IMG/VR virus record: IMGVR_UViG_3300034520_000280 | Location: 1-41,141 of that record | Reading direction: 5' to 3' (one strand) | Source of the DNA: a virus | Length of the DNA stretch: 41,141 bases | The notes under the pieces: generated by a model | Database searches by the model: none | Told to the model about the DNA's origin: nothing | What the model saw: the letters and a program-made list of their open reading frames with translations, nothing else | Part shown: in pieces, positions 2,929 to 22,344 of the stretch | How the letters are laid out: the number at the start of each line of letters is the position of its first letter | Numbering within the stretch: position 1 is the first letter of the stretch | Program-made: the position numbers and the translations under genes

Positions 2929-3084
2929 ATGAGTTTTAATGTCGATATGAGTGAAGTTTATCGTCAGTTTGCTAACGTCTTCGGCAGCATGACCCCCTTG
3001 CTCTGGCCCTTTATCGGTGCGTTGCTTGCACTCTTCGTTTTCGGAGGTATAATCACGATCCTGCGGCACTACACCAGCAAGTAG
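2929..3084 (+). CDS. Small single-span membrane protein, candidate coat protein (51 aa)
   Basis: The 51-residue product has an amphipathic N-terminal half (about residues 1-20), a membrane span (about 24-45, around PFIGALLALFVFGGIITI) and a basic end (LRHYTSK). Acidic amphipathic N-terminus, central span and basic C-terminus is the order seen in filamentous-phage major coat proteins, where the basic end contacts DNA. The GGGG ribosome binding site lies in the 4 bp gap after the previous stop. Confidence 0.75.
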   Translation: MSFNVDMSEVYRQFANVFGSMTPLLWPFIGALLALFVFGGIITILRHYTSK

Positions 3085-3093
3085 GCGGTAGCT

Positions 3094-3258
3094 ATGTCCT
3101 ACCTCAATTACGATATAACCAAAATGTACCAGGCCATAGCGGACACTATGGCCAGCATCTGGCCCATTGTGGCCCCGGCGTTCGCGATCATGCTTGCAAC
3201 GATGGTACTGGCCGGAATAGCCACGGTCCTATACAAGTGGATAGACGAAAGGCGTTAA
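3094..3258 (+). CDS. Small single-span membrane protein, candidate coat protein (54 aa)
   Basis: The 54 residues follow the same plan: an amphipathic N-terminus (about 1-20), a membrane span (about 22-46, around PAFAIMLATMVLAGIATV) and a charged tail (KWIDERR). It shares the pattern Q.....F/MAS/GSMW/TPxxxP with its neighbours at 2929 and 3314, which suggests that the three are diverged duplicates. Confidence 0.75.
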   Translation: MSYLNYDITKMYQAIADTMASIWPIVAPAFAIMLATMVLAGIATVLYKWIDERR

Positions 3259-3313: not shown

Positions 3314-3463
3314 ATGAGTCTCAACATTGTTCCTGCTGACGTCCTCAACTACATCGGGCAGGTCTTCAACGGTCTGTGGCCCATCCTGGCTATTGGCCTG
3401 GGCATCATGGCTGTCCCGATGCTGCTTGGCGCGGCCAAAGTCGTTTTCAGCCGTCGGCGTTAA
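3314..3463 (+). CDS. Small single-span membrane protein, best candidate major coat protein (49 aa)
   Basis: It has the strongest ribosome binding site of the series (AAAAAGGAGG) and is followed at once by strong hairpins, as gene VIII is in classical filamentous phages. The 49-residue product has a short amphipathic N-terminus, a membrane span (about residues 22-43) and the basic end VVFSRRR, suited to DNA contact inside a filament. Expression signals and architecture make it the most likely major coat protein; this is inference. Confidence 0.75.
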   Translation: MSLNIVPADVLNYIGQVFNGLWPILAIGLGIMAVPMLLGAAKVVFSRRR

Positions 3464-3593: not shown

Positions 3594-4742
3594 ATGGAAT
3601 TATTTATGTTCATTATCTCTCTTTATTACCTGTACCACCTGCTCTTTTTGCTTTTTAGCCTGGGTTTGACTAAACCCCTGACCGGCACACCGGCGGGAAC
3701 AGGCCAAAACCGCCTGGCTGTTTTAGTGCCGGCCCATAACGAGGAAAACGTGATAGCATCATCCGTCCGTTCCATCCTGGCCTCCCGTTATCCCGGGAAC
3801 AAATTCGATGTGTACGTCATTGCCGACAACTGCACCGATAGGACGGGGGAACTGGCCCGGGCCGCTGGTGCCCTGGTCCTGGAGCGGGCAAATAAGGAAT
3901 TACGTGGAAAACAACACGCCCTCAAGTGGGCGTTTGAGCAGATAAACCTGGACGACTATGACGCCGTGGTTATCCTTGATGCCGATAACCACGTGCACCC
4001 GGGTTTCCTGGGCGTACTGGACCACTACCTGGTCGCCGGCCACAGGGTGGTCCAGGGTTACGTCGAAACCAAGAACCCCGGCGATTCATGGGTTACCGCC
4101 AACTACGCCTACATGTTCTGGTACCTCTGCCGGTTGCAGATGGCCCGCACCCGGCTGGGCCTTTCGGCCTGGCTGGCCGGAACGGGGCTGTGTATCAGCA
4201 CCGATGTACTGCGCCGGGTAGGGTGGAGTGTGACCACCCTGGTGGACGATGTGGAGTATACCTGCCAGCTCCTGCTGGCCGGTGAGAGGGTTGCCTTTGC
4301 TCCCGGTGCCGTGGTGTACGACCAGAAACCCGTAGGTTTGGGTGATTCGATGAAACAGCGCCTCCGCTGGGTTCGCGGCCAGACCCAGGTAACCCTGCGG
4401 TACCTCCCCCGGCTGGCATGGCACGTGGTCCGGTGCTGGTGGCGGGGAGATTTCGGCCAGGCAGTGCGATCCTTCGACGGTATTATGTGGGTTCCGATGC
4501 AATTGGTGTTGCTGACGAGTTTCACTGTTTCATTGTTGATGGGCGGTTTAAATTACCTGGCGGGAGTCCTGGTCTCCGTCCCTGTGTTCTATTTATTGCC
4601 GCTGGTTGCGGAGCGGGTGAGGATACGCCGGGCCTGGACTTATTTGCTGACGGCGGGGGCGTTTTTCTTATCCTGGATACCAATCACTGCCTACGGAGTG
4701 ATGACGTGTGATCAGAAAAGCTGGTGGAGGACGCCGCATTGA
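3594..4742 (+). CDS. Membrane glycosyltransferase family 2 (BcsA/NodC/hyaluronan-synthase-like)
   Basis: The start is ATG 3594 behind GGAG; the open frame runs further upstream, but that part crosses the terminator and the coat gene. The 382-residue protein has an N-terminal membrane span (about 3-25), a GT-A catalytic domain with VLVPAHNEEN, the metal-binding ILDADN (DxD-like), TLVDDVEYTCQL, and the QRLRWVRGQ motif of processive GT2 enzymes, then C-terminal spans (about 300-375). It would transfer sugars from nucleotide-sugars at the inner face of the membrane, perhaps exporting a polysaccharide or decorating particle proteins. It may alter the host surface to exclude other phages or change attachment. 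Confidence 0.88.
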   Translation: MELFMFIISLYYLYHLLFLLFSLGLTKPLTGTPAGTGQNRLAVLVPAHNEENVIASSVRSILASRYPGNKFDVYVIADNCTDRTGELARAAGALVLERANKELRGKQHALKWAFEQINLDDYDAVVILDADNHVHPGFLGVLDHYLVAGHRVVQGYVETKNPGDSWVTANYAYMFWYLCRLQMARTRLGLSAWLAGTGLCISTDVLRRVGWSVTTLVDDVEYTCQLLLAGERVAFAPGAVVYDQKPVGLGDSMKQRLRWVRGQTQVTLRYLPRLAWHVVRCWWRGDFGQAVRSFDGIMWVPMQLVLLTSFTVSLLMGGLNYLAGVLVSVPVFYLLPLVAERVRIRRAWTYLLTAGAFFLSWIPITAYGVMTCDQKSWWRTPH

Positions 4743-4774: not shown

Positions 4775-5248
4775 ATGGCCATATTCACGAAAGCAAAGGA
4801 ATTAATTTCTTTGACTTTTAATCTATCAGAAAATTGGCCGAAGAAATATAGATTTGATTTCACTTCCAGGGTACGTAACATTTCTATGGACATTTACGAA
4901 AGTTTACTGGAAGCCAATGAAATATACATAGACACCAAAATCCTCGATGTAAAAAAGTCACTGAATCCAGATAATTTAATCCCCTGTCAAAATATAAATA
5001 GTGGGATGTGGATGATGGCAGTTAACTTATTCAAAATATACAAGATGGAAGAATATATTGCTAAAAGACGCGAAAAACAGAACCAGGCTTTTGCAGGACT
5101 TAAAAAGCTTGATTACCTATTCTCGGAAGCATATTCACTTCGTTTAATAAATGCAAAAAAGTGGGAAAGAGTATCTGGTTTAATATCAGAGACAATACGT
5201 TTATTAAAGGCTTGGGTTAAATCAGACCACAAAAGGTTTGAAATTTAG
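4775..5248 (+). CDS. avd: DGR accessory protein Avd-like (four-helix bundle)
   Basis: ATG 4775 is preferred over the upstream start because AAAAGGAA stands just before it. The 157-residue product is almost entirely helical and has the Avd/four-helix-bundle pattern: a Phe/Pro-containing loop (ENWPKKYRFDF) leading into a long helix (RNISMDIYESLLEAN), then further basic helices. Avd forms a pentamer that binds the DGR reverse transcriptase and template RNA. The gene lies directly upstream of the template repeat. It is much more AT-rich than the glycosyltransferase before it, which suggests that the DGR cassette came from another source. Confidence 0.82.
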   Translation: MAIFTKAKELISLTFNLSENWPKKYRFDFTSRVRNISMDIYESLLEANEIYIDTKILDVKKSLNPDNLIPCQNINSGMWMMAVNLFKIYKMEEYIAKRREKQNQAFAGLKKLDYLFSEAYSLRLINAKKWERVSGLISETIRLLKAWVKSDHKRFEI

Positions 5249-5274: not shown

Positions 5275-5379
5275 ACCCCTTATTCCGGCAACTCCAACAA
5301 CGTGTGGAACGTCAATTCTAATGGCAACCTGAACAACAACAACGCCAACAATACGGGTGGCGGCGTGCGTCCCGCTTTG
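5275..5379 (+). repeat. DGR template repeat (TR)
   Basis: These 105 bases match the variable repeat at 7043-7147 without gaps. The two differ at 15 positions, and at each one the TR base is A (8 A-to-G, 5 A-to-T, 2 A-to-C in the VR). Read in the frame of the target, the TR holds 13 Asn codons of type AAC/AAT, the classic DGR design that can mutate widely without making stops. The last 28 bases (5352-5379) are identical in both copies and form the initiation-of-mutagenic-homology-like end. Confidence 0.97.
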
Positions 5380-5543: not shown

Positions 5544-6593
5544 ATGAAAAGAGTAAATAACCTCTATCACCTTGTATATGACTTTACAAATTTATATAGA
5601 GCATACCTGGCTGCTCGTAGAGGGAAAAGGAATAAGATAGAAATAATTAAATTTGAATCACTACTAAGCAGCAACCTCCTTCAGTTAAAAGAACAATTAA
5701 TGAATAAAAGTTATTGTCCCGGACCATACCGTGTCTTTGTAATCAGGGAGCCAAAAGAACGTGTTATAATGGCCCCTAGATTTCGTGATCGTGTAGTTCA
5801 GCATAGCCTTTGTGATAATGTTCTTAATCCTGTTTTCGAACGCCATTTAATACCATTTACTTTTGCAAACCGTAGGTATAAAGGTACCCATGCAGCTCTA
5901 TATACTCTAAGCAGGCAAATGCAAAAGGCATGGAAAGAATCAGGAAATAATGGTTGTTACATATTAAAGTGCGACATATCTAACTACTTTTATAGTATAA
6001 ACCATAGTATCTTGAAGGGGAAAATTAGGAGATTAATAAAAGACAAAGATATTTTGTGGCTTACTGACCTTATCATTGATAGTACACCAGGAGAAGTGGG
6101 CATTCCCATAGGTAATCTTACCTCTCAATATTTTGCTAATTACTTTCTCTCTGAAATGGACCACTTAATTAAGGAAAAATTGAGGATAAAACATTATGTG
6201 AGATATATGGACGACTTTACCTTAATACACCATGACAAACAATATCTTGTTTATTGCAAAGAATACTTATCCAACTACCTTGAACATATTGGTTTAACTT
6301 TTAATAAAAAAACGCAGGTATTCCCTCTTAAAAATGGTGTTGATTTCTTAGGTTTTCACACATATGTTACTGAAACAGGTAAGATAGTCCGTAAATTAAG
6401 GAGAAATAGTAAGAAAAAGATGAAGCGAAAGCTACGCTTCTTCCAAAGAGAGTATTCTGCTGGAAGAATAGATCTTGATAGAATTAGATCCTCAATTGCA
6501 AGTTGGATAGGTCATGCAAAACATGGCAATACATATAACCTCCGCAAGAAAATATTAAACAAATATGCTTTTTCAAGGGGGTTAAATCAATGA
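5544..6593 (+). CDS. DGR reverse transcriptase
   Basis: A 349-residue RT with fingers and palm domains only. Motifs seen are KCDISNYF (catalytic Asp about 144), GIPIGNLTSQ (about 186-195, the form typical of DGR and group II-like RTs), and YMDDF with the catalytic Asp pair at 223-224, followed by a basic thumb. It makes error-prone cDNA of the template RNA, misincorporating at adenines, and this replaces the variable repeat in the next gene. The ATG lies very close to an AAAGGA site, so translation may be weak. Its stop overlaps the target gene start. It is AT-rich like the Avd gene. Confidence 0.96.
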   Translation: MKRVNNLYHLVYDFTNLYRAYLAARRGKRNKIEIIKFESLLSSNLLQLKEQLMNKSYCPGPYRVFVIREPKERVIMAPRFRDRVVQHSLCDNVLNPVFERHLIPFTFANRRYKGTHAALYTLSRQMQKAWKESGNNGCYILKCDISNYFYSINHSILKGKIRRLIKDKDILWLTDLIIDSTPGEVGIPIGNLTSQYFANYFLSEMDHLIKEKLRIKHYVRYMDDFTLIHHDKQYLVYCKEYLSNYLEHIGLTFNKKTQVFPLKNGVDFLGFHTYVTETGKIVRKLRRNSKKKMKRKLRFFQREYSAGRIDLDRIRSSIASWIGHAKHGNTYNLRKKILNKYAFSRGLNQ

Positions 6594-8122
6594 AATTAAA
6601 AATACAACTGTTTATGATAATGCTTGTTCTGTGGCTGTTTCCTGCTGCTGCCTTTGCCGCAACTCCTTTGCACGACCTTCCCCCGGGCACCATCATCACC
6701 TTCTCCGGCAAGCAGTGGATGATTCTTGACCAGATGCCAGACGGCACTACTTATATCATTCTCAACTCCAATGATGGCAACAGGGCCTTCGATCCTGACA
6801 ACACCCAGTTATTCAACCCCAGCGACAGCAACAATATAGGCTACTACCTCAATAACACTTTTTACAACAGTCTATCTCAAAAGGATTTAATAGTTGACCA
6901 CTCCTGGAATAGAAAATACGAGAATGGCAGTGGCAGTCAGGCAAATGTAACGTGCAAAATTGCCCTAATCAGCTATGCTGAATACCAAACTTATCGCTCC
7001 CTATTTCCTGCCAATGGTACCGGTTATTGGTGGTGGACAAGAACCCCTTATTCCGGCAGCTCCAGCGGCGTGTGGTACGTCTCTTCTAATGGCGGCCTGT
7101 ACTACAGCAACGCCTACGCTACGGGTGGCGGCGTGCGTCCCGCTTTGTATCTTAAATCTGGACTCATGGTATCTGATACAAATGAAGTGTTGGGTGAACA
7201 AGCGACGCAACCATCCGCACCCGCCGGTTTATCAGGTCAGGCAATCGGACCCACAGAAGTGCAATTGAACTGGCAACCAAACACCGAGCCCGACCTGGCA
7301 GGTTACATCATCTATCGCAACGGCACCGAGGTAGCACGGGTGGGCAATAGCACCACATCGTATACAGACAACGGCCTGATACCTAATACCAGTTATACTT
7401 ACAGCATCAAGGCTTACAATACTTTCGGCCTGACCAGCAATATGAGCAACACGGTTACAGTGACAACGCCTAAGCCTCCGGTGCCCACCAACCTGACCGT
7501 GAGCAACATAACTTCCACGGGGGCTATGGTAACATGGGATCCGGTACAGGAGGCCGAATCTTATAACGTATACCTTAACGATTTCCTTTATGCCGCCTAT
7601 GTTACCGATACTTCTTACAACATCACCGGTTTGGACCCAGCAACGAGCTACACCGTTCGGGTAACTACGGTAATCAGCAACGTTGAGGGTGATCCGGCGG
7701 CCACGACCTTTACAACGCTTGTTGGCTATAAGCCCAAACTCACCGTCAGGGTTGACAACCGCCAAATTATCATGTCCTGGGAAAGCATAGCTAATAGTTT
7801 TATCGTTGAAGTAAACGGCCAGCAGATAACCACTACATCTGACAAACAGTACACGTACACGGCTGAACCGGGAACGTATGAAATAAGGGTTATTGCAGTT
7901 GTTGACGGGCAACAGTACCCCTCCGACCCGGTGACGGTGAACGTATCCGCTTTCAACACCCCCGGAGTGGTGGAGGCCGCAAAGGACATACTGGGCAACA
8001 CTGCGGCAGTAATATTCCCCTTCGGGGGGCTGATAGCCCTGGGGCTTGCGCTGAAAGCCAGTCCCTTCTTGATAGCAGCCATTAAGAACGGCATATTAAT
8101 CAGATGGTTCAGGGGGTGGTAA
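6590..8122 (+). CDS. DGR-diversified surface protein: lectin-like variable domain, FN3 domains, C-terminal anchor (pIII-like)
   Basis: This 510-residue protein has a signal peptide (about 1-23, ending AAAFA), a variable domain (about 25-190) resembling the DUF6273/C-type-lectin-fold target domains of clostridial DGRs, two FN3 domains (about 207-292 and 297-378), a third beta-sandwich (about 380-454), one membrane span (about 471-490) and the basic tail IRWFRGW. The variable repeat covers residues 152-186, with 13 positions open to mutation (157, 159, 160, 163, 165, 167, 169, 171-174, 176, 177). The secreted head with C-terminal anchor is the plan of filamentous-phage pIII, which binds the host and caps the particle. 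It is translationally coupled to the RT. Confidence 0.93.
   Translation: MKLKIQLFMIMLVLWLFPAAAFAATPLHDLPPGTIITFSGKQWMILDQMPDGTTYIILNSNDGNRAFDPDNTQLFNPSDSNNIGYYLNNTFYNSLSQKDLIVDHSWNRKYENGSGSQANVTCKIALISYAEYQTYRSLFPANGTGYWWWTRTPYSGSSSGVWYVSSNGGLYYSNAYATGGGVRPALYLKSGLMVSDTNEVLGEQATQPSAPAGLSGQAIGPTEVQLNWQPNTEPDLAGYIIYRNGTEVARVGNSTTSYTDNGLIPNTSYTYSIKAYNTFGLTSNMSNTVTVTTPKPPVPTNLTVSNITSTGAMVTWDPVQEAESYNVYLNDFLYAAYVTDTSYNITGLDPATSYTVRVTTVISNVEGDPAATTFTTLVGYKPKLTVRVDNRQIIMSWESIANSFIVEVNGQQITTTSDKQYTYTAEPGTYEIRVIAVVDGQQYPSDPVTVNVSAFNTPGVVEAAKDILGNTAAVIFPFGGLIALGLALKASPFLIAAIKNGILIRWFRGW
7043..7147 (+). repeat. DGR variable repeat (VR)
   Basis: The copy of the TR at 5275-5379, shifted by 1768 bp and in frame within the target gene. 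Eleven of the 13 Asn codons of the template have changed, to Ser, Gly, Tyr and Ala codons; no position other than a template adenine has changed. The 3' end is GC-rich and unmutated, as expected for the site where cDNA replacement starts. Confidence 0.97.
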
Positions 8123-8125: not shown

Positions 8126-8758
8126 ATGATTAAAAAGTTGGTGGCCGCCGTGATCATCGGGGCCACTTTGCATACAGGCGCGGGGGTGGCATCTGCTGCC
8201 CCCCGCCAGATTAACTGCGCAGACCTCAAACCGGCCCGTGTTGTGGCTGTAAACTGTTCCGCCCTGGGTGTTTCCCGGCAGGATCCTCCGAAAGTTAACA
8301 AGGTGAACACCCGGGAAACCCGGCTGTCTTACTTCCCCGAGGTATCCCGGGGGATAACCGTCCGGCCACTCCTGGCGCGGCTTGCAGAAGATGTGCATAA
8401 CCTTATCGAGTGGGCCGCGAAAAAGGTAGGCCTGCCCTCATCACTGCTGCGGGCCGTAGCCCGGGCTGAATCCGGGGGTAACCACCGGGCCATATCCCCT
8501 TCCGGGGCGGTGGGTATAATGCAGCTCATGCCCTCCACGGCCCGGGCCCTGGGGGTTAACCCTTACGACCCCCGGGAAAACGTCCTGGGAGGGGCGATGT
8601 ACCTGAAGCGGCAACTGGACCGGTACCAGGGTAACCTGCCCCTGGCCCTGGCCGCCTACAACGCCGGTCCCGGGGCAGTGGACAGGCACGGGGGGATACC
8701 GCCATACCGGGAAACCAGAAATTACGTGGCTACGGTGATGAGCCTTTTGGGGAGGTAA
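8126..8758 (+). CDS. SLT-domain lytic transglycosylase, secreted
   Basis: A 210-residue protein with an N-terminal signal peptide (about 1-25), a linker, and a C-terminal SLT/LysM-type transglycosylase domain. Motifs seen are ARAESGGN with the catalytic Glu, [14 protein letters not shown], and [13 protein letters not shown]. It cleaves the glycan strands of peptidoglycan, presumably to let the particle or its assembly complex cross the wall. It starts 3 bp after the DGR target gene. A second copy of this domain lies at 11481. Confidence 0.94.
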
Positions 8759-8762: not shown

Positions 8763-9839
8763 ATGAATCAACAAACCAGGATGATGTTCTGGCTGGTGTA
8801 TTTGTTGGAGGTCCTGGTCTGTGTGTGCCTGTGCCTGGCCCTGGCCGTGGCCGCCCACGCCGCAGAACCCACCCCGGTGGAAGTTGTCAACCCGGTAACC
8901 ATAAGTCCACCACCTCCCCCGGTGGCCCCTTCAGAAGTTACCGTTTCCGGGGTGACTGATACTGAGGCTACGATCTCCTGGTCCCCGGTGGCTTACGCAA
9001 CCCAGTATTCTGTTTGGGTGGACGGGCAGCGGTGGACGGGGAGCACTTCCCCCGGGGTAACCATCCGGGGCCTACAGCCCAGCATGACTTACACGGTGTA
9101 TATCACTGCGGCAAACGAAAGCGGGGAAAGCGGACCGTCAGCTTCCGTTAGCTTTACCACCCTGCCCCCGGTCCCCACAGCCCCGGAGAAACCCGTGGTT
9201 ACGAAGGTAACCGACACCACGGCAACGGTGCAGTGGCACCCCCTGCCTCCGGACCAGCACATCCAGGCTTATCGGGTTTACGTGGACGGTAAGGCCGTGG
9301 CCGATGTGCAGCCGCAGGAAGGGATGCAGGTTGCCGAGTTAACCAACCTGAAGCCGGGAACCCATACCGTGGCTGTCAGTGGTTTAAATGCCAACAAAGA
9401 AGGCCCTCAATCACCGGCTGTAAGTTTTACCGTCCAGGCCGTTCCCGCTCCCACCGGCCTGCAAATGGTCAACCACTCCTACGACGCCGTCTGGCTGCAG
9501 TGGGATAAGGTTACGGGGGCTGAAAGGTATGAGATATACGTGGGGGAACAACTAACCGGCACGACTGACCAGACCAGTTATACTTTAACCGGCCTCCAGC
9601 CGGATCAGGAATACCAGGTAAGCCTGGTGGCATTGCTACCGGACGGCAACAGGAGCCAGCCGGCAACGTTGCAGGTAAAAACACTGCCGGCCCCCGAAGC
9701 CATAACCCTATCCGGGCTTAAGGAACGTATTTTCCCTTACGTGAATGATGTCATTCCTGCCCTGGTGGTTGTATTTGCGGTAGGGGCCGCTTTTACCATC
9801 GCCCGTATGGCCAGGATGCCCTTTTCGTGGAGGGTTTAA
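8763..9839 (+). CDS. Secreted FN3-repeat protein with C-terminal membrane anchor
   Basis: A 358-residue protein with a signal peptide (about 1-34, ending AAHAA), three FN3 domains (about 57-135, 140-220 and 223-305) with the usual Trp and Tyr core positions, and one C-terminal membrane span (about 326-346) with a short basic tail. Its head-plus-anchor plan matches the DGR target, but it has no variable domain. It may be a second tip or surface component of the particle. Confidence 0.85.
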   Translation: MNQQTRMMFWLVYLLEVLVCVCLCLALAVAAHAAEPTPVEVVNPVTISPPPPPVAPSEVTVSGVTDTEATISWSPVAYATQYSVWVDGQRWTGSTSPGVTIRGLQPSMTYTVYITAANESGESGPSASVSFTTLPPVPTAPEKPVVTKVTDTTATVQWHPLPPDQHIQAYRVYVDGKAVADVQPQEGMQVAELTNLKPGTHTVAVSGLNANKEGPQSPAVSFTVQAVPAPTGLQMVNHSYDAVWLQWDKVTGAERYEIYVGEQLTGTTDQTSYTLTGLQPDQEYQVSLVALLPDGNRSQPATLQVKTLPAPEAITLSGLKERIFPYVNDVIPALVVVFAVGAAFTIARMARMPFSWRV

Positions 9840-9841
9840 CA

Positions 9842-10996
9842 ATGAGGTTTTGTTTGAGGTTACTGTTAGTTTTTCTTGTTTCTCTATATATTGCTACCCC
9901 TGCACTGGCGGCAGTTGTATATGCAAACCCATCTTACATATTTACATCGCAGCCAAATACAACAATCATACAGAGTGAGTACCTTTGGGCAGATACTACC
10001 GGTTTGGAATCAACGCGATTTACAGAAGTAAAAGTATCGTGGGAACTGCAACCCGGTGACCAGGTAGGAATTAAGTTTTGGGATAGAGCCTTAAACCCCT
10101 TACCTTCGGCACATTTGGATACGAGCAATACGAGTGCAAGGGGAGTAAGCGTAAGTTTCCCTTCTAATGCATATTTTGCTAAATTAGTCTTAATGACCGG
10201 AGATGCTTCTGGAAACAGGTATTTGTGGTGGGACAGTGTCAGCAACACAAACGGTCATACTACTATTTTCGCGGCACCGGAAATATCAACACCACCACCT
10301 ACTAACGTAGGAGAAACACCTTCGTCGGGTACAAGTCAAACAACCATAAGCATAGACAATTCCGAAGTAGTTGCAGAACTTAGAAATATCGGAAACCAGT
10401 TATCAACAGTAATCAGTAACCAGGAAGAAGTAATTAGTCAACTTAATGATGTCAAAAGCAAGTTAAGCACTATAATCGGTCATCTCAGTCATATAGATGA
10501 CTACTTAACCATACCACGGCAGGCTGAGCCGCTGGACACAAGCTCCCTGGGGCCTGCACCCTCTGTAGACCCTACACCACCCCCGGTAACCGAACCGCCG
10601 CAGCAGCCGTACACCTATGACAGGCCGACGCCGCAAATGCCGCCGTTCGAGGATAGCCCCGGGCCGCTGCCGATAGCTCCGGATCCCACGGTAATGGAGC
10701 ATGACCCTCCGGCCGCAAGGGACAACCCCCGGGAGCTGGACCCGCCGAGAACACCGGACCCTGTAAGCATGGATCCGCCGCTGGCACGCGATCCGGTGAG
10801 CATGGATCCTCCCCTGGAACGTGACCCGGTATCTATGGACCCACCCCTGACCCGGGACCCGGTGGTTATGGATCCGCCGTTGAGCCGCGATGAACCGATA
10901 CAAAGAGATGAACCGCTTACGAGAGAAGAGCCATTGACCCCGGATCCCCCATTGACACCGGATCCTCCGCTCACCCCGGAACCGCCTTTGAATTAA
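9842..10996 (+). CDS. Secreted protein with coiled coil and Pro/Asp-rich repeat tail
   Basis: The start is ATG 9842, 7 bp after GGAGGG; the GTG further upstream lies before that site. The protein has a signal peptide (about 1-25), a beta-rich globular domain (about 26-140), a predicted coiled coil (about 165-210) and a long low-complexity tail of 7-10 residue units such as RDPVSMDPPL and TPDPPL. Such tails can act as stalks or wall spacers. No membrane anchor is seen. The domain order suggests a fibrous surface or structural protein; no family was recognised. Confidence 0.72.
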   Translation: MRFCLRLLLVFLVSLYIATPALAAVVYANPSYIFTSQPNTTIIQSEYLWADTTGLESTRFTEVKVSWELQPGDQVGIKFWDRALNPLPSAHLDTSNTSARGVSVSFPSNAYFAKLVLMTGDASGNRYLWWDSVSNTNGHTTIFAAPEISTPPPTNVGETPSSGTSQTTISIDNSEVVAELRNIGNQLSTVISNQEEVISQLNDVKSKLSTIIGHLSHIDDYLTIPRQAEPLDTSSLGPAPSVDPTPPPVTEPPQQPYTYDRPTPQMPPFEDSPGPLPIAPDPTVMEHDPPAARDNPRELDPPRTPDPVSMDPPLARDPVSMDPPLERDPVSMDPPLTRDPVVMDPPLSRDEPIQRDEPLTREEPLTPDPPLTPDPPLTPEPPLN

Positions 10997-11031: not shown

Positions 11032-11484
11032 ATGTACCAGTTTTTTCAGAGCCTTTTCCAGTATTTGATGAACGCTATAATCAATGCGGTACACTGGTTC
11101 GGCCAGCTATTTCAGAACATCTGGAATGCATTCAAGCAGTTCATCGCTATGATATTCCAGCCCCTGCTGCTCTTTTTCCAGGGGCTGTGGTACTTGATTA
11201 CGAAGGTCTTTGATATTGTAGTTTTGTCCGTGCAGGTCATTTTCGGCCTCTTCAAAGTTGTCTGGTCCATTGTGGCCGGGATATTTCACACTTTTGCGGG
11301 GCTGATGGGTTTTTCAGGCAGCACCGATTATTACTACTTACCCGGGGCATACCAGCAGGGTTGGGACGGGGTAGCCGGGTTTTTCCTGAAGACCGGGTTG
11401 AATACTATTGCCCTGGTTGCGTGTGTCTTCGTGTGGATTATGACGGCCTGGGCGGTGATTAAGATAGCGGGTGGGGAACGGTGA
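11032..11484 (+). CDS. Multi-span membrane protein, candidate pVI-like assembly partner
   Basis: This 150-residue protein consists of a long aromatic amphipathic N-terminal region (about 1-45), two hydrophobic spans (about 42-60 and 64-95), a loop, and a last span (about 122-145). Filamentous-phage pVI is a small protein with several spans that caps the filament together with pIII. Here the gene lies among the pIII-like genes, which supports a similar job. The similarity is architectural only. Confidence 0.7.
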
Positions 11485-12227
11485 GGGTTCTTGCCGCATT
11501 CCTTGCTCTTATTCCTGCCCTTGCCTTCCTCCCTTCTCCGGCCCTGGCCGTTCCAACCCCTCCCGACTACATGATCCCCTACTTCCAGCAGGCCGCCAGC
11601 GAAACAGGGGTGGATTACAACCTGCTGGTTTCGGTGGGGTACTGTGAAAGTGGCTTCAACCCCAACGCAGTATCCAGTGTGGGGGCCATAGGGGTAATGC
11701 AACTCATGCCGTCAACAGCGGCAGCATACGGGGCAAGTGATCCTTACGACCCCCAGCAGAACATCATGGCCGGGGCCCGGTACTTAAAATACCTGCTGGA
11801 CCGCTATAAAGGAGACGTGCAGCTTGCCCTGGCCGCCTACAACGCCGGCCCGGGCAACGTGGACAAGTACGGGGGTATTCCCCCCTTCCGCGAGACGAGG
11901 GATTACGTGAAAAAAGTCATGGCCAATGCCGGCCTGACATACGAAGAGAGGTCATACGGTGTGTTTCAGCGGATAGTGGATACTTTCTTTAACCCCATCA
12001 TTAACATCCTGGTTTCGGTGAGGGACCGCCTGGATTACGTCTCCCAGGTGGCCGCCCGGGGTTTGAACCTGGATTATTTCCTGGGTCCTGTGATGATGAT
12101 GGGTCCTCAGTGGAAGGTGTTAATAGTCTCAGTAGTGGCAAGCGCTTTCCTGCTGCTGACCGTCCTGGTGGCAAGGAAAGGCTACGGGATTTACCTGGCA
12201 CTCAAGGAGGGGGTTAAGTGGTGGTAA
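11481..12227 (+). CDS. SLT-domain lytic transglycosylase with C-terminal membrane span
   Basis: GTG 11481 overlaps the previous stop. The 248-residue protein has a signal peptide (about 1-23), an SLT domain with YCESGFNP (catalytic Glu), [14 protein letters not shown] and [13 protein letters not shown], then a linker and a C-terminal span (about 212-235). The membrane anchor would keep the peptidoglycan-cutting domain at the assembly site. It is clearly related to the SLT domain at 8126, so the operon carries both a free and an anchored form. Confidence 0.93.
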
Positions 12228-14230
12228 AGAGACTGAGGGCAAAGAAATTTGCGGCCTTACTTCTGATACTTGTCCTATTGTGCCTATTTCTCGTATCTTC
12301 GTCGGCAGTTTATGCAGAAGAAAACTTCACAAATGTGAGTTTAACTACACAGCCTGGAATGTCATATAGTGGGCTAAATAATATGCTTGACGCCAAAAAT
12401 GACACATACGGAATAATAACTCTTGAAAATATAGATTTGGTTGACCAGGGTGATTTGATAGCTACGTTTCATTTTGATCCTGTTTATGTAGGGTCAGTTA
12501 ATTTATATACATTAAATTGTGGGTTTACAGTTATTTGGACTTTCGCTCCTGAGCCTCCACCTGGGTCTGTAACAAACTTAAGAATTAGAAGTGATAAAGG
12601 AATACAATATGCTGGTGTATACTATAACTATTATATTGAGTGGGACTTTACGGGAGCAGAAGAATACAAAGTTTATAAAGATGGTCTATATTTTGGCTCA
12701 ACAACAAATACAGAAATTACAATCCCATTTGGTGGCAATGCAAACCCTAAAGTTATAGAAGTATCACCTGTTGTTAATGGAATAGAGCAAGCAAAAGCAA
12801 AACTAATTATTTCAAACTCAACAGCAACAATGTTTTCTGGTTCTTTTACAGTAAATGGCTTAATATCTGAAATAAAGGGTTACATGCTTACAAGTGATGA
12901 TATGCAATACAATGGTGCTGATTACCGCATAGATTACATTTCTTATGGTCTACCGTCACCACCTCCACCTGTAGTTAATCTCGATGTGACTAATATCACT
13001 AAAAATACGGCAACTGTTACATGGGGCGCTATTGATGCAGAGAAGTACAATATTTACCTAAACGGTTTCTTGGTGGGGACGACTACAAACACATATTATG
13101 ACTTAACAGGATTAACGCCTGGAACAACATACACAGTGGAAGTTTCCGGCGTCCGAGGAACGGTAGAAGGACCTAAAACTTCAAAGACATTTAGCACTAT
13201 TCCCCCGGACCCAGTAACAAACCTTACAATAACCGAAGTAACAAAAACTTCCGCAACCGCAACCTGGACCGGCACGGCGAACGCCAGCGAGTACAAAGTG
13301 TACCTCAACGGGCAACTGTTGGGGACGACTACGGATACATCTTATCCACTGACCGGACTTACCCCTGGGACAACCTATACCGTGGAAGTGTCTCCCGTTG
13401 AAGCTGGTGTAGAAGGGCAGAAGGCATCTAAAACCTTTACAACCCTCGCACCAGATCCGGTAACAAGCTTGGATGTGATAAACATAACCACCAATTCAGC
13501 AATCGCAACCTGGACAGGTACTCCTAACGCAAGCGAGTACAAAGTTTACCTTGATGGCCAGTATATTGGCACGACTACAAGCACAAATTACTCTCTGACC
13601 GGCCTAAGTCCCAACACCACCTACACCGTGCAGGTTTCCCCGGTGGAAATGGGCGTAGAGGGGTCGAAAGCATCAAAGACTTTTACCACCTTGCCTCCCC
13701 CGGATTTAAAAGTCTACTGGGTTGTTGGGGGCAATTATGTAAGGGTAGAATGGTCCAGTAATGGCTCACAGATTGATGCCGACTGGATACAGTTATGGCG
13801 CACAGATACGGCAACAGGAATCTGGATGCCCGTTAAAGACATAACAGGCACTGAGATAAACTCTTTCGCGTGGACGGACACGATGGTTAGCAGCGGCCTG
13901 AACTATAAGTACCAGGTCAGGGCTTATAACTCTTCTAATTGGTCCTGGAATGTGATCTGGGAATCAGACTGGGCGGTAAACGAACGTCCCTTCAACGCCC
14001 CAAGTGGCCTGAAAATTACATCCAAGAGTGATACCAGCGCAACCGTTACCTGGAATACCGTTCAGGGGGCTACCACCTACCAGGTGCAGGTCAGCACGGA
14101 TGGAGGTACTACCTGGCAGACTTCTACCGTCAGCGGCCCTCCCGTAACGGTCCCCAGGCCCTGCCAGGTGAGAGTTAAGGCCGGGACACATGCAAGGAGC
14201 CAGTGGTCCGGGATACTTACGGTACAGTAA
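12218..14230 (+). CDS. Large secreted FN3-repeat protein (670 aa)
   Basis: It starts at GTG behind AAGGAGGGGG and overlaps the previous gene by 10 bp. It has a signal peptide (about 1-33), a unique N-terminal domain (to about 115) and five or six FN3-like domains beginning near residues 117, 248, 329, 410, 493 and 594. The central ones repeat the frame [19 protein letters not shown] almost unchanged. No C-terminal anchor is seen. The DNA is AT-rich up to about 13200 and GC-richer afterwards, which suggests assembly from two sources. It is probably a secreted or particle-attached adhesive fibre. Confidence 0.85.
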
Positions 14231-14355: not shown

Positions 14356-14730
14356 GTGTTTTTTCAAACAGACGCTGGTGACGTTCTGAATAAATTGTGG
14401 ATGGTTGTGCAATTTCTAGCCCCCATATATGCGATAGCCTTTGGAATGCTTGGAGCACGTATGCTTATTGAATACGGCCTCGGGAAACTTATGGATAAGT
14501 TTTTCCCGGCAAAGCCCAAAAAACTAAAACTAAAAGTTCGACTGCTACCAGCCGCCGGCGTCGCCGGGCTTCAGTATACATCAGCTCGGAAAGAAATCCC
14601 CAAATCAGGAGAACTAAAACAGGAGTGTATGTTTACTATGATTAATTCATCAGGCCCCGGGGGTAACAAAAACCCGGGGCCTACACATTGCAAAAAGAAT
14701 GCAGTTTTTATTCATTGTGCGAAGGCCTAA
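14356..14730 (+). CDS. Small membrane protein with basic cytoplasmic tail
   Basis: GTG 14356 follows GGGAGGTGG. The 124-residue frame has one N-terminal hydrophobic span (about residues 14-38) and then a very basic stretch (KFFPAKPKKLKLKVR). The last 40 or so codons cross a strong hairpin and look less natural, so the functional protein may be mainly the first 85 residues. It is adjacent to other small assembly proteins and to Zot, so it may be an assembly-complex component. Confidence 0.6.
   Translation: MFFQTDAGDVLNKLWMVVQFLAPIYAIAFGMLGARMLIEYGLGKLMDKFFPAKPKKLKLKVRLLPAAGVAGLQYTSARKEIPKSGELKQECMFTMINSSGPGGNKNPGPTHCKKNAVFIHCAKA
14652..14682 (+). other. 10-bp GC-rich perfect hairpin inside a gene end
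   Basis: AGGCCCCGGG (14652-14661) pairs with CCCGGGGCCT (14673-14682) around an 11-base loop. It lies within the 3' part of the open frame from 14356 and has no T-run. It may be a partial terminator, an mRNA stabiliser or a DNA structure. Confidence 0.6.
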
Positions 14731-14762: not shown

Positions 14763-14888
14763 ATGGGTGTCTTTGAGTTCTTCTTTTCGGCCACGGCAGG
14801 CATAGCGGCAGGGCTGGCCGTGGTGGTCATACCCTCCCTGTATATTTACAACAGGTACTTTAACCTCTCAAGGAGGAATAGGGCGTGA
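14763..14888 (+). CDS. Small single-span membrane protein (41 aa), coat-like
   Basis: The start is ATG 14763 behind GGGGGTG; the frame is open further upstream but has no ribosome binding site there. The 41 residues contain one span (about 8-30) and the basic end NLSRRNRA, the same plan as the coat-like proteins at 2518-3463. It may be a minor coat or end-cap protein. Confidence 0.68.
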   Translation: MGVFEFFFSATAGIAAGLAVVVIPSLYIYNRYFNLSRRNRA

Positions 14889-15235
14889 TCTTCAAACGTA
14901 AGAAAGAGGACATAACAGATGACGTTATACTGATAAACGAAAATGAGATAAGGATCCTCGAAGTGACGGCACTGGACGAAAACGCCGTCCATGCCGGCAA
15001 CCTTGTTCTTCCCCGGGCAGATGCCCAGGTGAGGTATTACCCCGGGGGTGGAAGAGCGTTTATTTACGGTTACAGCGGGCCCTACCTGGCCGAAAGTCAG
15101 AACATCGCGGAATTAGAAAAGTCTGTGGTGCTGCGCAATATGTTTAACTACGGATCGGCTGCTAAAATGCACAACATTCAGTTTTACGTCATGCTTGCGG
15201 CGTTGATCATAACCATCTTCCTTTTGCGCCACTAA
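14885..15235 (+). CDS. Tail-anchored protein upstream of Zot
   Basis: GTG 14885 overlaps the previous stop. The 116-residue protein has a charged soluble N-terminal domain (about 1-90, beta-rich) and a single C-terminal hydrophobic span (about 98-115). The Zot protein here lacks the membrane span that pI/Zot proteins normally carry, so this protein could supply the membrane half of the assembly ATPase. That pairing is inference from gene order. Confidence 0.65.
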   Translation: MIFKRKKEDITDDVILINENEIRILEVTALDENAVHAGNLVLPRADAQVRYYPGGGRAFIYGYSGPYLAESQNIAELEKSVVLRNMFNYGSAAKMHNIQFYVMLAALIITIFLLRH

Positions 15236-15248
15236 GGAGGCGAAATAA

Positions 15249-15593
15249 ATGGCTGAAGAAACCACCACCAGCGGGGGTAAAACTCTCCAGGATATAATGT
15301 CAAATGAGTTATTCGCCAGCTCCCGGGGTGACCTGGTGGAAACCCTGCGGTTTATGGAGAATCACGGCACCCCTTTAAGTGAAATGCAGGTGCAGGGGGT
15401 AGCCCTCTTGCGCTACCTCCAGACCAAAAGAGGGGAGAAAAATTATGAGCCCATTATTCAGACCATGACCAAGATGGCCAAAGATATTACACCCCCAGGA
15501 GTTTTCGTCGAAGTGATAGAGAAAATGACCCTGGGCGGCTTCGTGACGGGTAAGATAAACCTGCGGAAAGTCTTCGGGGGTAGCGACAAGTGA
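15249..15593 (+). CDS. Hypothetical soluble protein, 114 aa
   Basis: It starts at ATG behind AAGGAGGCG. The product is soluble and helical, with no membrane span, and was not recognised. It stands two genes before zot in a tightly packed operon, so a cytoplasmic role in particle assembly or DNA handling is plausible. Confidence 0.65.
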   Translation: MAEETTTSGGKTLQDIMSNELFASSRGDLVETLRFMENHGTPLSEMQVQGVALLRYLQTKRGEKNYEPIIQTMTKMAKDITPPGVFVEVIEKMTLGGFVTGKINLRKVFGGSDK

Positions 15594-15739: not shown

Positions 15740-16447
15740 ATGTATGTCTGGGTTTTCCAGGGCAACCTGGGGGAAGGTAAGACGTTCGGAATGAGTGTCC
15801 TGGCCCACTACTTTGCGGCCAAGGCCCGCCGGGCCGGGATACCGGTGGATCTGTACGCAAATTACGGGCTGAAAGGTGCCCGGCAGCTGAACCATTACAC
15901 TGATTTTTACCGGGTGGCGAAAAGCCCAAACTCAATCTGCCTTTTAGACGAGGCCCACGTTAACCTTGACTCCCGGCTGTTCCACCGGGGGGCAAACATC
16001 TACATGACGCAGTTCTTTTTCTACCTCCGAAAGCTCCATTCTAGTCTTTTTATGACTACCCCTCACATTCGCAATCTGGATTCGCGAATGCGTCAACTGA
16101 CCAACATTCTGGTTGTCTGCCAGCGAGTAGGCGGCGGTTTCATGTACGACATATACGATTACCAGGCCGAAAGGCTCTTAAGGCGCAGGTTTATGCCTAA
16201 ATACATCGTGCAGCAGTTGTTTGAGGTAGGGTTGTACGATACCCACGCCATCATCCGCAGCATTGAGTTTCCGGCGAATGAGCGGACCTTTGATAGCTTC
16301 TTGACCAAACTCATAGCAGTTAGAGACGGAGCGGACTTAAACGCCGTAATGGGGAAAACAGAGGACCCGGAAGAGATGGAAGAGGGTGAAGAGGTTGAAC
16401 AAGAACCAGCACCAAGAAACAGAAAAAGAACGGCCCACGGCGTGTAA
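15740..16447 (+). CDS. Zot/pI-like assembly ATPase
   Basis: This 235-residue P-loop ATPase has Walker A GNLGEGKT (residues 8-15) and Walker B ICLLDEAH (66-73), with the early-Walker-A layout and length of Zot (pI) cytoplasmic domains. In filamentous phages this protein powers extrusion of the genome through the membrane while coat proteins are added. The usual membrane span and outer domain are missing; the protein ends in an acidic stretch and a basic tail. The neighbouring tail-anchored proteins may replace them. This is the key marker for a filamentous-type particle. Confidence 0.88.
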   Translation: MYVWVFQGNLGEGKTFGMSVLAHYFAAKARRAGIPVDLYANYGLKGARQLNHYTDFYRVAKSPNSICLLDEAHVNLDSRLFHRGANIYMTQFFFYLRKLHSSLFMTTPHIRNLDSRMRQLTNILVVCQRVGGGFMYDIYDYQAERLLRRRFMPKYIVQQLFEVGLYDTHAIIRSIEFPANERTFDSFLTKLIAVRDGADLNAVMGKTEDPEEMEEGEEVEQEPAPRNRKRTAHGV

Positions 16448-17265: not shown

Positions 17266-18096
17266 GTGGGGAAAATCCGTGCTGATAGGATTATCCGTCA
17301 GATAGCCCGACGTCATAAGGATGACCTGTTCTTAACTGAGGTAAAGAACGGGCCGACGCTATTTGGTGAAGGCCTCCTGATCATGGACGCCGTGGCCGTA
17401 AAAAAGTCCTGGAAAAAACCCTGCATTACAGGGTATGAAATAAAAACCAGCCGGCAGGATTTTCTGCGGGATAACAAGTGGCCCTACTACCTGAAATACT
17501 GCCACCTCCTGTACTTTGCCTGCCCGGCGGGATTGATCGCGCCGGAGGAGGTTCCGGAAGATGTAGGACTTATCTACTACAACCCTGAGAAGGACTGTAT
17601 CCACACCAAGAGGGCCGCCATCTTCAGAGCTATTGAGATACCTTGGGAAATGCTGTATTACATGCTCATATGCCGGTCCAAATCAGACAGGCACCCGTTT
17701 TTCAGCAGCCAGCGCGAATACTTGGAGGCATGGGTCCAGGATAAAGCCGAGCGAAAAGAGCTTGGCTGGCGGGTTAGAAACAAAATGACTGAACAGATCG
17801 AGGAATTGACGAAAAGGGTAAGGGATCTAGAGTTTGAACTTTCTTTACAAAAAAGAGAAATCGAGGTTTTTAAAAGAGTTAAAGATATCCTAGCGAGGTA
17901 TGACGTTAACATCTATAACGGCGATATAGAACGGAGTTTGGAGAATGCCCTGAGTCGCGGAACTCCTCCGGTATTTCGGGACAAGCTACGGGTAATCGCC
18001 CGGGAGGTGGAAAAACTCATGAAATTAACGGAAAGGATAACATGCCTGCCTGCGGAGCAATTAACATACAGCGCGATTAACGAAGGTGATCAATAG
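17266..18096 (+). CDS. PD-(D/E)XK nuclease-like protein (MmcB-type) with coiled coil
   Basis: It starts at GTG 17266. The 276-residue protein has an N-terminal restriction-endonuclease-like fold (about 1-130) with a candidate active site of MDAV (Asp) and GYEIKTS (ExK), as in MmcB-like DNA repair proteins, followed by a coiled coil (about 150-200) and a helical end. It may process DNA ends in repair, recombination or replication. Its stop overlaps the start of the tyrosine recombinase, so the two are co-expressed. The family assignment is tentative. Confidence 0.6.
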   Translation: MGKIRADRIIRQIARRHKDDLFLTEVKNGPTLFGEGLLIMDAVAVKKSWKKPCITGYEIKTSRQDFLRDNKWPYYLKYCHLLYFACPAGLIAPEEVPEDVGLIYYNPEKDCIHTKRAAIFRAIEIPWEMLYYMLICRSKSDRHPFFSSQREYLEAWVQDKAERKELGWRVRNKMTEQIEELTKRVRDLEFELSLQKREIEVFKRVKDILARYDVNIYNGDIERSLENALSRGTPPVFRDKLRVIAREVEKLMKLTERITCLPAEQLTYSAINEGDQ

Positions 18097-18941
18097 TGGA
18101 TGGGTTTCTTAATACCCTGGACGGTAGCACCGCCCGGGCATACCGGGAGGACCTGGCCGACTTCGCCCGGTGGTTCGCCCACACTAACGGTCAAGACCCC
18201 ACCCCGGAATTAGTGACCGGCATCGACCTGCGGGAGTACCAGGGGCACATGCTGGCGGTGCGCGGCCTTAAGCCGGCAACCGTGAACCGCCGACTGGCCG
18301 CAATCCGGGCCTGGCTCCGGTGGGCCAGGGAAAACGGGATAATAGAGGACCTACCGCCCTTCCCCCGCCGGGCAGCCGAACCCAAAGGGGCTCCCCGGGC
18401 GCTATCCCGGGTGGAAGAAGCCCGCTTCCTCCGTGCTGTGGAGAGGGAAGGGAGCCCCCGGGATCAGGCACTGATCGCCCTCATGCTCCACGCCGGCCTG
18501 CGGGTGGGGGAGGCGGTGCGGGTGCGGGCCGCCGAGGTGGAGATCAGCGATCGCAAAGGCCGGGTGGTGGTCCGGGCGGGTAAGGGAATGAAAAGGCGGG
18601 AGGTACCCCTGTCCGCCGAGGCCCGGGCCATGATCCGGCCCTGGCTCTCACAGGTTCAAGGGGAGTGGCTTTTTCCCGGCCAGGACGGGAAACATCTCTC
18701 CACCCGGGCCGCACAGGACGTAGTGAAGAAATACGCTTACCTGGCGCGGCTGGACGTTGATCACGTTACTCCCCACGTCCTGCGGCACACCTTTGCCACC
18801 CGACTTTTGCGGCAAGGGGTGGACATAGTAGTGGTTGCCGCTTTGCTTGGACATGCCCGGATAGACACCACGGCCAGGTACACCCGGCCCGGGTGGGCTG
18901 ACCTGGAAAGGGCCGTAGAAGGGGGGAACACTTCTTGTTAG
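18096..18941 (+). CDS. Tyrosine recombinase (XerC/XerD-like)
   Basis: GTG 18096 overlaps the previous stop. The 281-residue protein has an N-terminal SAM-like core-binding domain (about 1-95) and a catalytic domain with Arg136, Lys163, His227-x-x-Arg230, His253 and the nucleophile Tyr262. All catalytic residues are present. The element also has a serine recombinase, so this enzyme may resolve multimers or use a dif-like site, as many filamentous phages do through host XerCD. Its gene is GC-richer than its neighbours. Confidence 0.93.
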   Translation: MDGFLNTLDGSTARAYREDLADFARWFAHTNGQDPTPELVTGIDLREYQGHMLAVRGLKPATVNRRLAAIRAWLRWARENGIIEDLPPFPRRAAEPKGAPRALSRVEEARFLRAVEREGSPRDQALIALMLHAGLRVGEAVRVRAAEVEISDRKGRVVVRAGKGMKRREVPLSAEARAMIRPWLSQVQGEWLFPGQDGKHLSTRAAQDVVKKYAYLARLDVDHVTPHVLRHTFATRLLRQGVDIVVVAALLGHARIDTTARYTRPGWADLERAVEGGNTSC

Positions 18942-20170: not shown

Positions 20171-20191
20171 AGCCCGGCATTACGCCGGGCT
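20171..20191. terminator. 8-bp hairpin at the convergent gene ends
   Basis: AGCCCGGC (20171-20178) and GCCGGGCT (20184-20191) with a 5-base loop. It overlaps the stop codon of the minus-strand gene and is probably part of a bidirectional termination region. Confidence 0.55.
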
Positions 20192-20647
20192 GATGTACCC
20201 CAGAATCTCCACCGGGACGGCCACCCCTTCTCTGTCCGGTGCCAGGGGGTGCAGTTCTGGCGGAAGCCAGTCTTTTATCCGTGTTCCTCTCCCGTCCGGG
20301 AGGGTGTGGCAGGAATCAAACCCTGACCGCCCCCGGATCAGCACCTCCAGCCAGCCAAGTATGGGCTGATCCGTGAGGGGGGAGTGCAGGGCCTCAAGAA
20401 CCACCGGGATGTCCTCTTCCTGTTCGTCAAAGCCGTCCCAGTTCCCGGGGAGATGCTGGAGTGCCTGGGCGACGGCGTTCCAGGTGGTGTGCACCGCCCC
20501 GTTTAGCATGTACTGCTCCACGAAGCGGTGAAGACATTCTTCTACCGCGCCGGACTGGGACGTTTTAAGCCACCGCACCACCCAGGCCAAATACCCCTGG
20601 GCGACGGGGGAAAGGTAAAAGCTATACGTTTTGCTTTTTTCGGGCAT
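20180..20647 (-). CDS. Hypothetical protein with ribbon-helix-helix-like N-terminus
   Basis: The start is ATG 20647, 8 bp after AAGGAG, rather than the longer frame from 20704. The 155-residue acidic protein begins with a segment (about 5-45, around YSFYLSPVAQGYLAWVVRWL, then TSQSGAVEECL) that resembles a short strand-helix-helix. The rest was not recognised. It is the last gene of the minus-strand block. Confidence 0.6.
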   Translation of the reverse strand: MPEKSKTYSFYLSPVAQGYLAWVVRWLKTSQSGAVEECLHRFVEQYMLNGAVHTTWNAVAQALQHLPGNWDGFDEQEEDIPVVLEALHSPLTDQPILGWLEVLIRGRSGFDSCHTLPDGRGTRIKDWLPPELHPLAPDREGVAVPVEILGYISPA

Positions 20648-20704
20648 TCTGATTTCTCCTTTTTCTTCTTTTTCTCCTTTACGTGGAAGATAAATCTCAA
20701 ACAT

Positions 20705-21484
20705 TTAGTCCACCTCTCCCCGGCGGCCGGGGAAGGGGTGCAGCGCCAGCCAGGATCCTTCCGGAACGTCCAGCGGGTCGTGGTCCGGCGATGTGATGCG
20801 GGCCGGACCGGTGAAACGGACGGCGCACATAATCCGGCCGGTGTACTCTACGGCTACCGGGCGGGCGAGGGAGCAGTCAGGAGTAATAAACTCATCTTTT
20901 TGCAGGGTGTGGTTGAAGAGGGCCTGTGACCCGTGCCACACCCCACCGATATCTAACCCGTCCCGAGGCACAATACGTAAGTGCCCCTGCTGGAGAACGG
21001 TGTCTTCCGGTACCTGGAACACCCCGTCTCCATCATCATCGGCAAGGTAAAATACCGGCTGGCGGAAGTGGTACCCCGCCAGGCGCGGGGTGAGCACCCA
21101 CGCCTGCACCAGTTTCTCATCCCGGACAGGGAAGGGAAGCTGAAAGAAAAGTTGCTGTGCCAGGTTGATAACGGGCCGGACAAAGGTAGCTGGTACGGAC
21201 AGTTCCACCCACTCACCCACCAGGCCCTCCACCGGGCGCGGGGCAGGGGTATAGGAAATGGGTGTGAGGGCAATCTCTACGGCGTGGCGGGAATTCCAGG
21301 CCCGCACAACTGCATACGGAATTTCCTGCGTAGCCGGGGAGAAGTCCACGGCATGGCGGCTGCGGCAGGGGCTGTTCAGGTGGCCCGCACGAGCCACCAG
21401 CTGGCCCACCTGCACCGATGGGGCGGTGCAGGTGGTGATGGATTCTACCGCGCTCTGTAAACGCTGTACGTCTATTAGCCGCAT
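20705..21484 (-). CDS. Hypothetical protein, 259 aa
   Basis: ATG 21484 stands behind a strong AAAGGAGG. The upstream extension of the open frame crosses a leader hairpin and is not coding. The product is soluble and mostly beta-strand, with an acidic DDDGDG loop near the middle that could bind calcium. No family was recognised. It is the largest protein of a block of otherwise small proteins. Confidence 0.65.
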   Translation of the reverse strand: MRLIDVQRLQSAVESITTCTAPSVQVGQLVARAGHLNSPCRSRHAVDFSPATQEIPYAVVRAWNSRHAVEIALTPISYTPAPRPVEGLVGEWVELSVPATFVRPVINLAQQLFFQLPFPVRDEKLVQAWVLTPRLAGYHFRQPVFYLADDDGDGVFQVPEDTVLQQGHLRIVPRDGLDIGGVWHGSQALFNHTLQKDEFITPDCSLARPVAVEYTGRIMCAVRFTGPARITSPDHDPLDVPEGSWLALHPFPGRRGEVD

Positions 21485-21502
21485 AATAACCTCCTTTCTT
21501 CT

Positions 21503-21523
21503 GCCGGGATTACGGATCCCGGC
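21503..21523 (-). promoter_or_regulatory. Leader hairpin type A, copy 1
   Basis: GCCGGGAT (21503-21510) pairs with ATCCCGGC (21516-21523). The stretch 21503-21529 matches 21948-21974 with one mismatch. It lies just upstream of the gene starting at 21484. Confidence 0.65.
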
Positions 21524-21575
21524 GGGCCGAATTTGGCTGGGCGTATTTGGACCGCCACCAAGCGGGGTTGTTAGT

Positions 21576-21911: not shown

Positions 21912-21947
21912 AACGCACCCTCCTTGCCCTTTCTTTCCTCTCTGTTC

Positions 21948-22245: not shown

Positions 22246-22260
22246 TACGCCCTCCTTTCT

Positions 22261-22283: not shown

Positions 22284-22344
22284 TGGGGAAGATTTGTTGG
22301 CGGGGAGGTTGTTAACCCGGCTTTGCTCCCCAGGCCGGGGCGGA

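Follow-up and report, generated by a model that had tools for sequence, protein, structure and literature searches.

A DGR-diversified lectin on a coat-like anchor: a probable pIII-type receptor-binding protein of a large inovirus-like phage

The analysis of the window (the whole stretch of 41,141 nucleotides of viral DNA) revealed a complete DGR, consisting of Avd, TR, RT and VR, directly upstream of and inside the ORF 6590-8122. Judged from its sequence and from comparison with related elements, the product of this ORF is probably a receptor-binding, pIII-type surface protein, diversified by the DGR, of a large temperate inovirus-like phage of Gram-positive bacteria. Hypermutation of a receptor binder may here be seen for the first time in a filament-type virus. 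The window corresponds to an IMG/VR record whose ends share an exact repeat of 127 bp, so that it represents a circle of 41,014 bp. Its relevant features are listed in Table 1.

Table 1. Features of the DGR, its target and the surrounding genes in the window
Feature	Position	Strand	Remarks
Six small single-TM proteins, 40-54 aa, pVIII/pVII/pIX-like	2509-2673, 2673-2798, 2802-2924, 2929-3084, 3094-3258, 3314-3463	+	one hydrophobic segment each; conserved
GT2 glycosyltransferase with TMs	3594-4742	+	adjoins target in relatives
avd accessory protein	4775-5248	+	NCBIfam DivGenRetAVD 2.8e-11; Pfam bAvd 1.1e-6; both under curated score cut-offs
TR	5275-5379	+	105 bp, 29 adenines, 13 AAY codons
DGR reverse transcriptase (RT)	5544-6593	+	RVT_1 9e-20; motifs IGNLTSQ and YMDD
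DGR target, 510 aa	6590-8122	+	signal peptide 1-24; DUF6273 lectin 25-200; three FN3 206-452; coat-protein-like anchor 464-506 and basic tail
VR	7043-7147	+	target residues 152-186; 11/13 AAY-derived codons changed
Coat-like anchor, target residues 464-506 (43 residues)	7979-8107	+	end-to-end alignment with 49-aa coat-like protein 3314-3463
SLT lytic transglycosylase, signal peptide	8126-8758	+	Pfam SLT 2.3e-28
FN3 x3 protein with C-terminal TM	8763-9839	+	conserved in relatives
Secreted protein, Pro/Asp-rich repeats	9827-10996	+	conserved in module
150-aa multi-TM protein, pVI-like by position	11032-11484	+	
SLT domain fused to conserved 88-aa TM protein ending GVKWW	11481-12227	+	88-aa part is a separate gene in most relatives
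Secreted FN3 protein 'F'	12218-14230	+	N-domain varies among relatives: kelch-like, DUF6273
TM and basic protein	14356-14730	+	N-terminus resembles coat-like protein
Two conserved module proteins: 116 aa with C-terminal TM, 114 aa soluble	14885-15593	+	
Zot/pI-type morphogenesis ATPase, stand-alone	15740-16447	+	assigned by Pfam Zot and homologs
Tyrosine recombinase	18096-18941	+	conserved beside module
Theta-type replication	39689-41141	+	initiator 39689-40849; DnaB helicase from 40828, continues 3-1220 across the 127-bp circular joint

The cassette is arranged in the order avd, TR, RT and target with VR, and there is a 4-nt overlap between the ATG of the target and the stop codon of RT. Comparison of TR with VR identified differences at 15 out of 105 positions, all 15 of them at TR adenines; the 76 non-A positions are identical without exception. 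The chance of all differences falling on the 29 adenines is 1.4e-10. The divergence between TR and VR is adenine-specific and the cassette is intact, with the RT, Avd and target ORFs all open; the DGR is presumably active at present. The initial annotation had named this ORF as a DGR target with 13 variable positions, and these correspond to the 13 AAY codons of TR, 11 of which are changed in the present VR. A second VR was not found in the window. The RT is 52% identical to that of the DGR phage nd12, which is among its best relatives in annotated phages.

Pfam analysis of the target detected DUF6273 (8e-12) and two fn3 matches (1.9e-21). The AlphaFold2 model (mean pLDDT 82, pTM 0.46) contains a signal helix, a globular N-domain with VR, three beta-sandwiches and a helical C-terminus; confidence is low in the C-terminal helical region, which includes the anchor. 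These data agree with the signal peptide and lectin-like variable domain recognized initially, and refine the count of the FN3 domains, also recognized then, to three. Structure prediction had been suggested as a check of the C-type-lectin fold. It returned a globular N-domain; the fold itself is taken from Pfam and the literature, because Foldseek with the whole target chain gave FN3-dominated matches. A profile search with the lectin matched no solved structure. DUF6273 has been modelled as a C-type lectin (PMC10743442), and on the basis of this modelling and of the Pfam match VR sits in a C-type-lectin-like domain.

A hydrophobic C-terminal segment followed by a basic tail is predicted in the window target and in all six relatives checked. 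The initial annotation had described it as a membrane span with a basic tail; this prediction holds, but the segment is not just a membrane span, since it is coat-like over its whole length. Alignment of the anchor family with the 49-aa coat-like family by hhalign gave a probability of 94.4 (P 9e-8), compared with 0.9 for the 88-aa protein used as a control. Pairwise scores between the anchor and the coat-like protein were 57-65, versus a maximum of 44 over 64 unrelated TM segments. When all were compared against all, the target C-terminus scored well only with the coat-like protein and, more weakly, with the TM-basic protein. Part of the multi-TM protein, included as a control, reached z 5.6 in the shuffle test but 2% in hhalign. 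A generic TM effect was ruled out as the source of the similarity by the 64 unrelated TM segments and the other TMs of the module. The likeness of anchor and coat-like protein is the best evidence that the target would be made to sit among coat subunits.

The N-terminal part of the target is exchanged between relatives. The N-domain is a kelch propeller in L047, beta-helix-like in L013, a discoidin domain in L066 and a lectin in L014, L012, L048 and L062; the FN3-anchor C-terminus is kept despite these differences. In most relatives where both genes are visible the target gene directly follows the GT2 gene, and only in the window are DGR genes interposed. Comparison with the near-identical prophage G070 located the limits of the exchange: homology extends as far as the GT2 stop codon and starts again with FN3-1, and the avd-TR-RT-signal-lectin block of the window stands exactly where G070 has a signal-kelch block. 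The GC content of avd and RT is 33-34%, against 45-62% in the other genes measured, so that these two genes look imported. A viral-contig scan using the target alone gave no match. Overall, exchange of the N-domain on a kept anchor, the position of the target after the coat-like and GT2 genes and the coat-like nature of the anchor support a pIII-like role, as far as such comparisons can indicate. With the Zot module described below, they favour the pIII-type reading that the initial annotation had put forward. We infer that the protein is present on particles, is located at the tip and binds a receptor.

The same anchor allows a variant of this reading, in which the target is carried on the particle along the side of the filament, in the manner of Hoc or the tentaclins, and does not cap the tip. 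Such a location would suit an anchor that resembles the coat-like protein itself, and a comparison with the Hoc capsid protein was made for tentaclins, whose lectin-FN3 architecture is the same (PMC10743442). A tip protein is also compatible with the exchange of a single domain, which is typical of receptor binders, and we regard a lateral position as unlikely.

A different fate of the protein would be to remain in the envelope of the host as an adhesin, encoded by the phage, diversified by the DGR and acting in lysogenic conversion, cell-cell or particle adhesion, or superinfection exclusion, without entering the particle. On cells, DGR targets anchored in the membrane are common (PMC8144416). 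Moreover, the nearest RT among those sampled (60% over 149 aa) was found on a host chromosomal contig, where it has the same RT-target overlap, a secreted lectin as its target and an adjacent surface protein. However, the window target ends in a conserved anchor that belongs to the phage itself and aligns with the coat-like protein; the gene occupies the same structural-gene slot in relatives, and in G070 this slot is filled by a kelch domain. An envelope adhesin seems to us quite improbable.

The genes around the target are consistent with a pIII-type protein of an extruded particle. None of the six small proteins matched a named coat family. They are conserved across loci, and the possibility that they are spurious ORFs was rejected; the product of 3314-3463, which has an SRRR end, is the best major-coat candidate. 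The Zot-like protein of the window scored 19.1 bits with Pfam Zot, just under the cut-off of 20.3, and all seven of its homologs match Pfam Zot (best 9.1e-6). A profile search with this ATPase found no solved relative and its structure model was of unusable quality (pLDDT 52). Of replication initiators and helicases, the theta-type initiator and DnaB were the only ones found in the window, and RCR Rep was not detected. Because of this, its size of 41 kb and its theta-type replication, the window is not filed as a standard inovirus.

The set of module genes is conserved in loci of Desulforamulus, Desulfosporosinus, Peptococcaceae and Syntrophomonadaceae and in further genomes, and the module occurs also in prophages of several Gram-positive lineages. 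Homologous modules are found in inovirus-like genomes of 10-12 kb, and sibling elements have sizes of about 20 and 28 kb. A distant cousin prophage, L053, encodes a Rep_trans rolling-circle initiator (1.6e-46) and a Zot protein above the cut-off (3.2e-9), together with homologs of the 150-aa multi-TM, 88-aa, 116-aa, 114-aa and small coat-like proteins. A search with the 88-aa protein identified 14 further IMG/VR contigs of 5-14 kb, every one of them with Zot and most with further module proteins. Zot homologs are also present on Gram-positive plasmids of 10-25 kb; both plasmids inspected carry the 150-aa and 88-aa proteins as well. Two IMG/VR cousins have D5-type primase-helicases. The filament-type setting proposed at the outset is thus favoured by the stand-alone Zot/pI ATPase, the run of coat-like proteins of 40-54 aa, the multi-TM protein and the lytic transglycosylases, which form a conserved group accompanied in one element by an RCR Rep. 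The true pIII could also be another FN3-TM protein, that encoded at 8763-9839.

The closest described relative is Moorella phage MCACPph1 (OR602863.1, 19,989 bp), in which nearly the whole module matches the window in the same order. Identity is about 70% for Zot and up to 88% for small proteins, and the lectin of the target is 83% identical in nucleotides over 538 bp. MCACPph1 differs from the window in its size of 20 kb and in having no avd, TR or RT (no RT is annotated). Its homolog of the target is WPA89766.1, and WPA89764.1 is a coat-like protein of 51 aa. The available text of the MCACPph1 study describes a culture that was filtered (0.45-um), DNase-treated and pelleted, from which the active 20-kb region was recovered; the 20-kb genome was DNase-protected in the 0.45-um filtrate (PMC11328732). 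Micrographs of the phage were not found in this text.

According to the same text, an assignment of MCACPph1 to Caudovirales was suggested by its authors because of a 'tail fiber J' annotation (PMC11328732). This annotation falls on the FN3-TM protein. The assignment, and the FN3 matches to tail proteins in general, could suggest that the element is a tailed phage or a satellite and that the target is a tail or head protein. Terminase, portal, capsid and tail-assembly genes were not found among the scanned ORFs of the window, the remainder of which are replication, integration, regulation and methylation genes or unassigned. The FN3 matches are domain-level only, and the Zot module is common to inovirus-like genomes. 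FN3 matches to 'tail' PHROGs as a sign of tails, and a tailed-phage origin of the module, were both rejected, and a tailed phage is very improbable here.

The DGR itself was not found in the relatives sampled. Neither TR nor a DGR RT was found in nine module-bearing genomes searched; judged by their size and identity, the RT matches in these genomes resemble group II introns, and they were rejected as DGR RTs. RT is absent also from all 14 inovirus-like IMG/VR contigs. No significant hairpin was detected downstream of VR (z -0.43), a feature that is not present in every DGR. A non-functional relic, to which the missing strong hairpin and the sampled relatives without a detected DGR might point, is hardly credible when the RT, Avd and target ORFs are open and VR departs from TR at adenines only.

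In MCACPph1 the region equivalent to VR differs from that of the window at 39 of 105 nt, with 20 non-synonymous and 4 synonymous codons. At the 13 AAY positions the third base is always kept, and eight of the 13 have a new first or second base. This is the pattern that DGR mutagenesis leaves, though no RT is annotated in this phage. These observations can be combined into a wider proposal, for which we see the arguments as evenly balanced. Extruded phages of Gram-positive anaerobes, large (20-41 kb) and replicating in the theta mode, would form a lineage that changes tropism by swapping whole binding domains on a coat-derived anchor and by DGR hypermutation of one domain captured together with Avd-TR-RT; repeated loss or action in trans would account for the signature in the RT-less Moorella sibling.

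If the target is a pIII-type protein, the following sequence of events can be envisaged. The protein would be secreted and held in the membrane by the C-terminal segment resembling a small coat protein. Through this segment it would be built into the particle while the Zot-type ATPase drives extrusion, and the FN3 stalk with the hypervariable lectin would be left facing outward. From TR RNA the RT would make a copy that has random bases at the adenine positions, and this copy would replace VR, so that progeny could gain new binding faces at up to 13 codons (about 15^13 combinations). The lectin would bind a ligand on the host surface, and its variants may widen or shift tropism.

A DGR on an extruded phage, if true, would show targeted hypermutation to be independent of tails. 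The host cell survives the release of inovirus particles, so that tropism would vary during a chronic infection without lysis. M13 phage display would have a natural counterpart in a filament with a self-diversifying lectin. The sibling phage MCACPph1 has a described host strain, Moorella carbonis ACPs (DSM 116161), which makes particle shape and protein location directly testable.

The pIII of Ff and CTX has a signal peptide, an N-terminal binding domain and a C-terminal membrane anchor, and its gene is placed after the coat genes. By sequence features and prediction the target shares the signal peptide, the N-terminal domain, the C-terminal anchor with a basic tail and the position after coat-like genes. 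It differs in its lectin and FN3 domains and in an anchor that resembles a small coat protein, and no sequence match to pIII families was found in Pfam or PHROGs. In the DGR of Bordetella phage BPP-1, RT and Avd direct adenine-specific TR-to-VR mutagenesis of a receptor-binding lectin fold; BPP-1 is a tailed phage and its VR is at the C-terminus of the tail protein Mtd. In the window, in contrast, VR lies well inside the protein (residues 152-186 of 510) and the target follows RT. The element as a whole resembles inoviruses (Tubulavirales) in its Zot/pI ATPase, small TM coat-like proteins, long minor-coat-like gene after the coat genes and integrase. It is unlike them in its 41 kb, theta-type replication without a detected RCR Rep, many FN3 proteins and DGR. 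Inoviruses normally have about 5-15 kb of ssDNA (PMC6813254), and Firmicutes-targeted inoviruses with a stand-alone Zot have been described (PMC8530359).

Most DGR targets known from phages are tail proteins, or receptor-binding proteins of another kind, in tailed phages (PMC8144416, PMC10743442); in a large DGR survey viral targets were tail-type and cellular ones membrane-bound (PMC8144416). The tentaclins of gut phages nd4 and nd12 are like the target in having an N-terminal DUF6273 lectin with VR followed by FN3/Ig domains (PMC10743442). Attachment of tentaclins was proposed to proceed via the C-terminal Ig domain, whereas the target ends in a coat-like hydrophobic segment. The report on tentaclins mentions no filamentous phages, signal peptides or TM segments (PMC10743442); the target has both a signal peptide and a coat-like anchor and is encoded in a Zot module. 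In the literature searched we found no earlier report of a DGR joined with an inovirus-type element or target. The lectin-FN3 architecture is already known from the tentaclins; the inovirus-like setting, the coat-like anchor and the cassette swap are new.

The Zot-type module of the window is also present in its closest deposited relative, Moorella phage MCACPph1 (OR602863.1, 1-19989), which PMC11328732 assigns probably to Caudovirales. No tailed-phage assembly genes were found in the annotation of that record except for FN3-based names. MCACPph1 is probably a misclassified inovirus-like phage. The equivalent of the window's variable region (MCACPph1, 11150-11254) carries a DGR signature, yet no reverse transcriptase (RT) is annotated in this phage, which suggests that the DGR has been lost or acts in trans.

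Most relatives encode the conserved 88-aa GVKWW protein by a gene of its own, unfused; in the window it is joined to a lytic transglycosylase (SLT) domain. A GTG at about 11961 immediately precedes its first codon and could allow internal initiation. The second secreted FN3 protein may be a second binding protein, because its N-domain is also swapped among relatives: kelch-like at locus L014, tandem DUF6273 at L012 and DUF6273 at L048.

Further features of the window
Feature	Position	Strand
SLT domain and 88-aa GVKWW protein, in-frame fusion, GVKWW part behind SLT	11481-12227	
The module's second secreted FN3 protein	12218-14230	
Minus-strand ORFs	20180-24191	-
IS21-type IstA/IstB genes	26557-28846	

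The near-identical prophage G070 is without the IstA/IstB genes at the matching position. The scanned minus-strand ORFs (20180-20704 and 20705-21637) gave no family match.

Genome G026 carries the module's Zot gene three times (L049, L050 and L051). In two inovirus-like contigs of 10-12 kb (L091, L095) no RCR Rep was seen; both encode a D5-type primase-helicase. A DGR fragment was observed on a chromosomal contig (L085, 2-1578), its target being a secreted DUF6273 lectin adjoining a surface protein; the RT-target overlap is identical in this DGR and that of the window.
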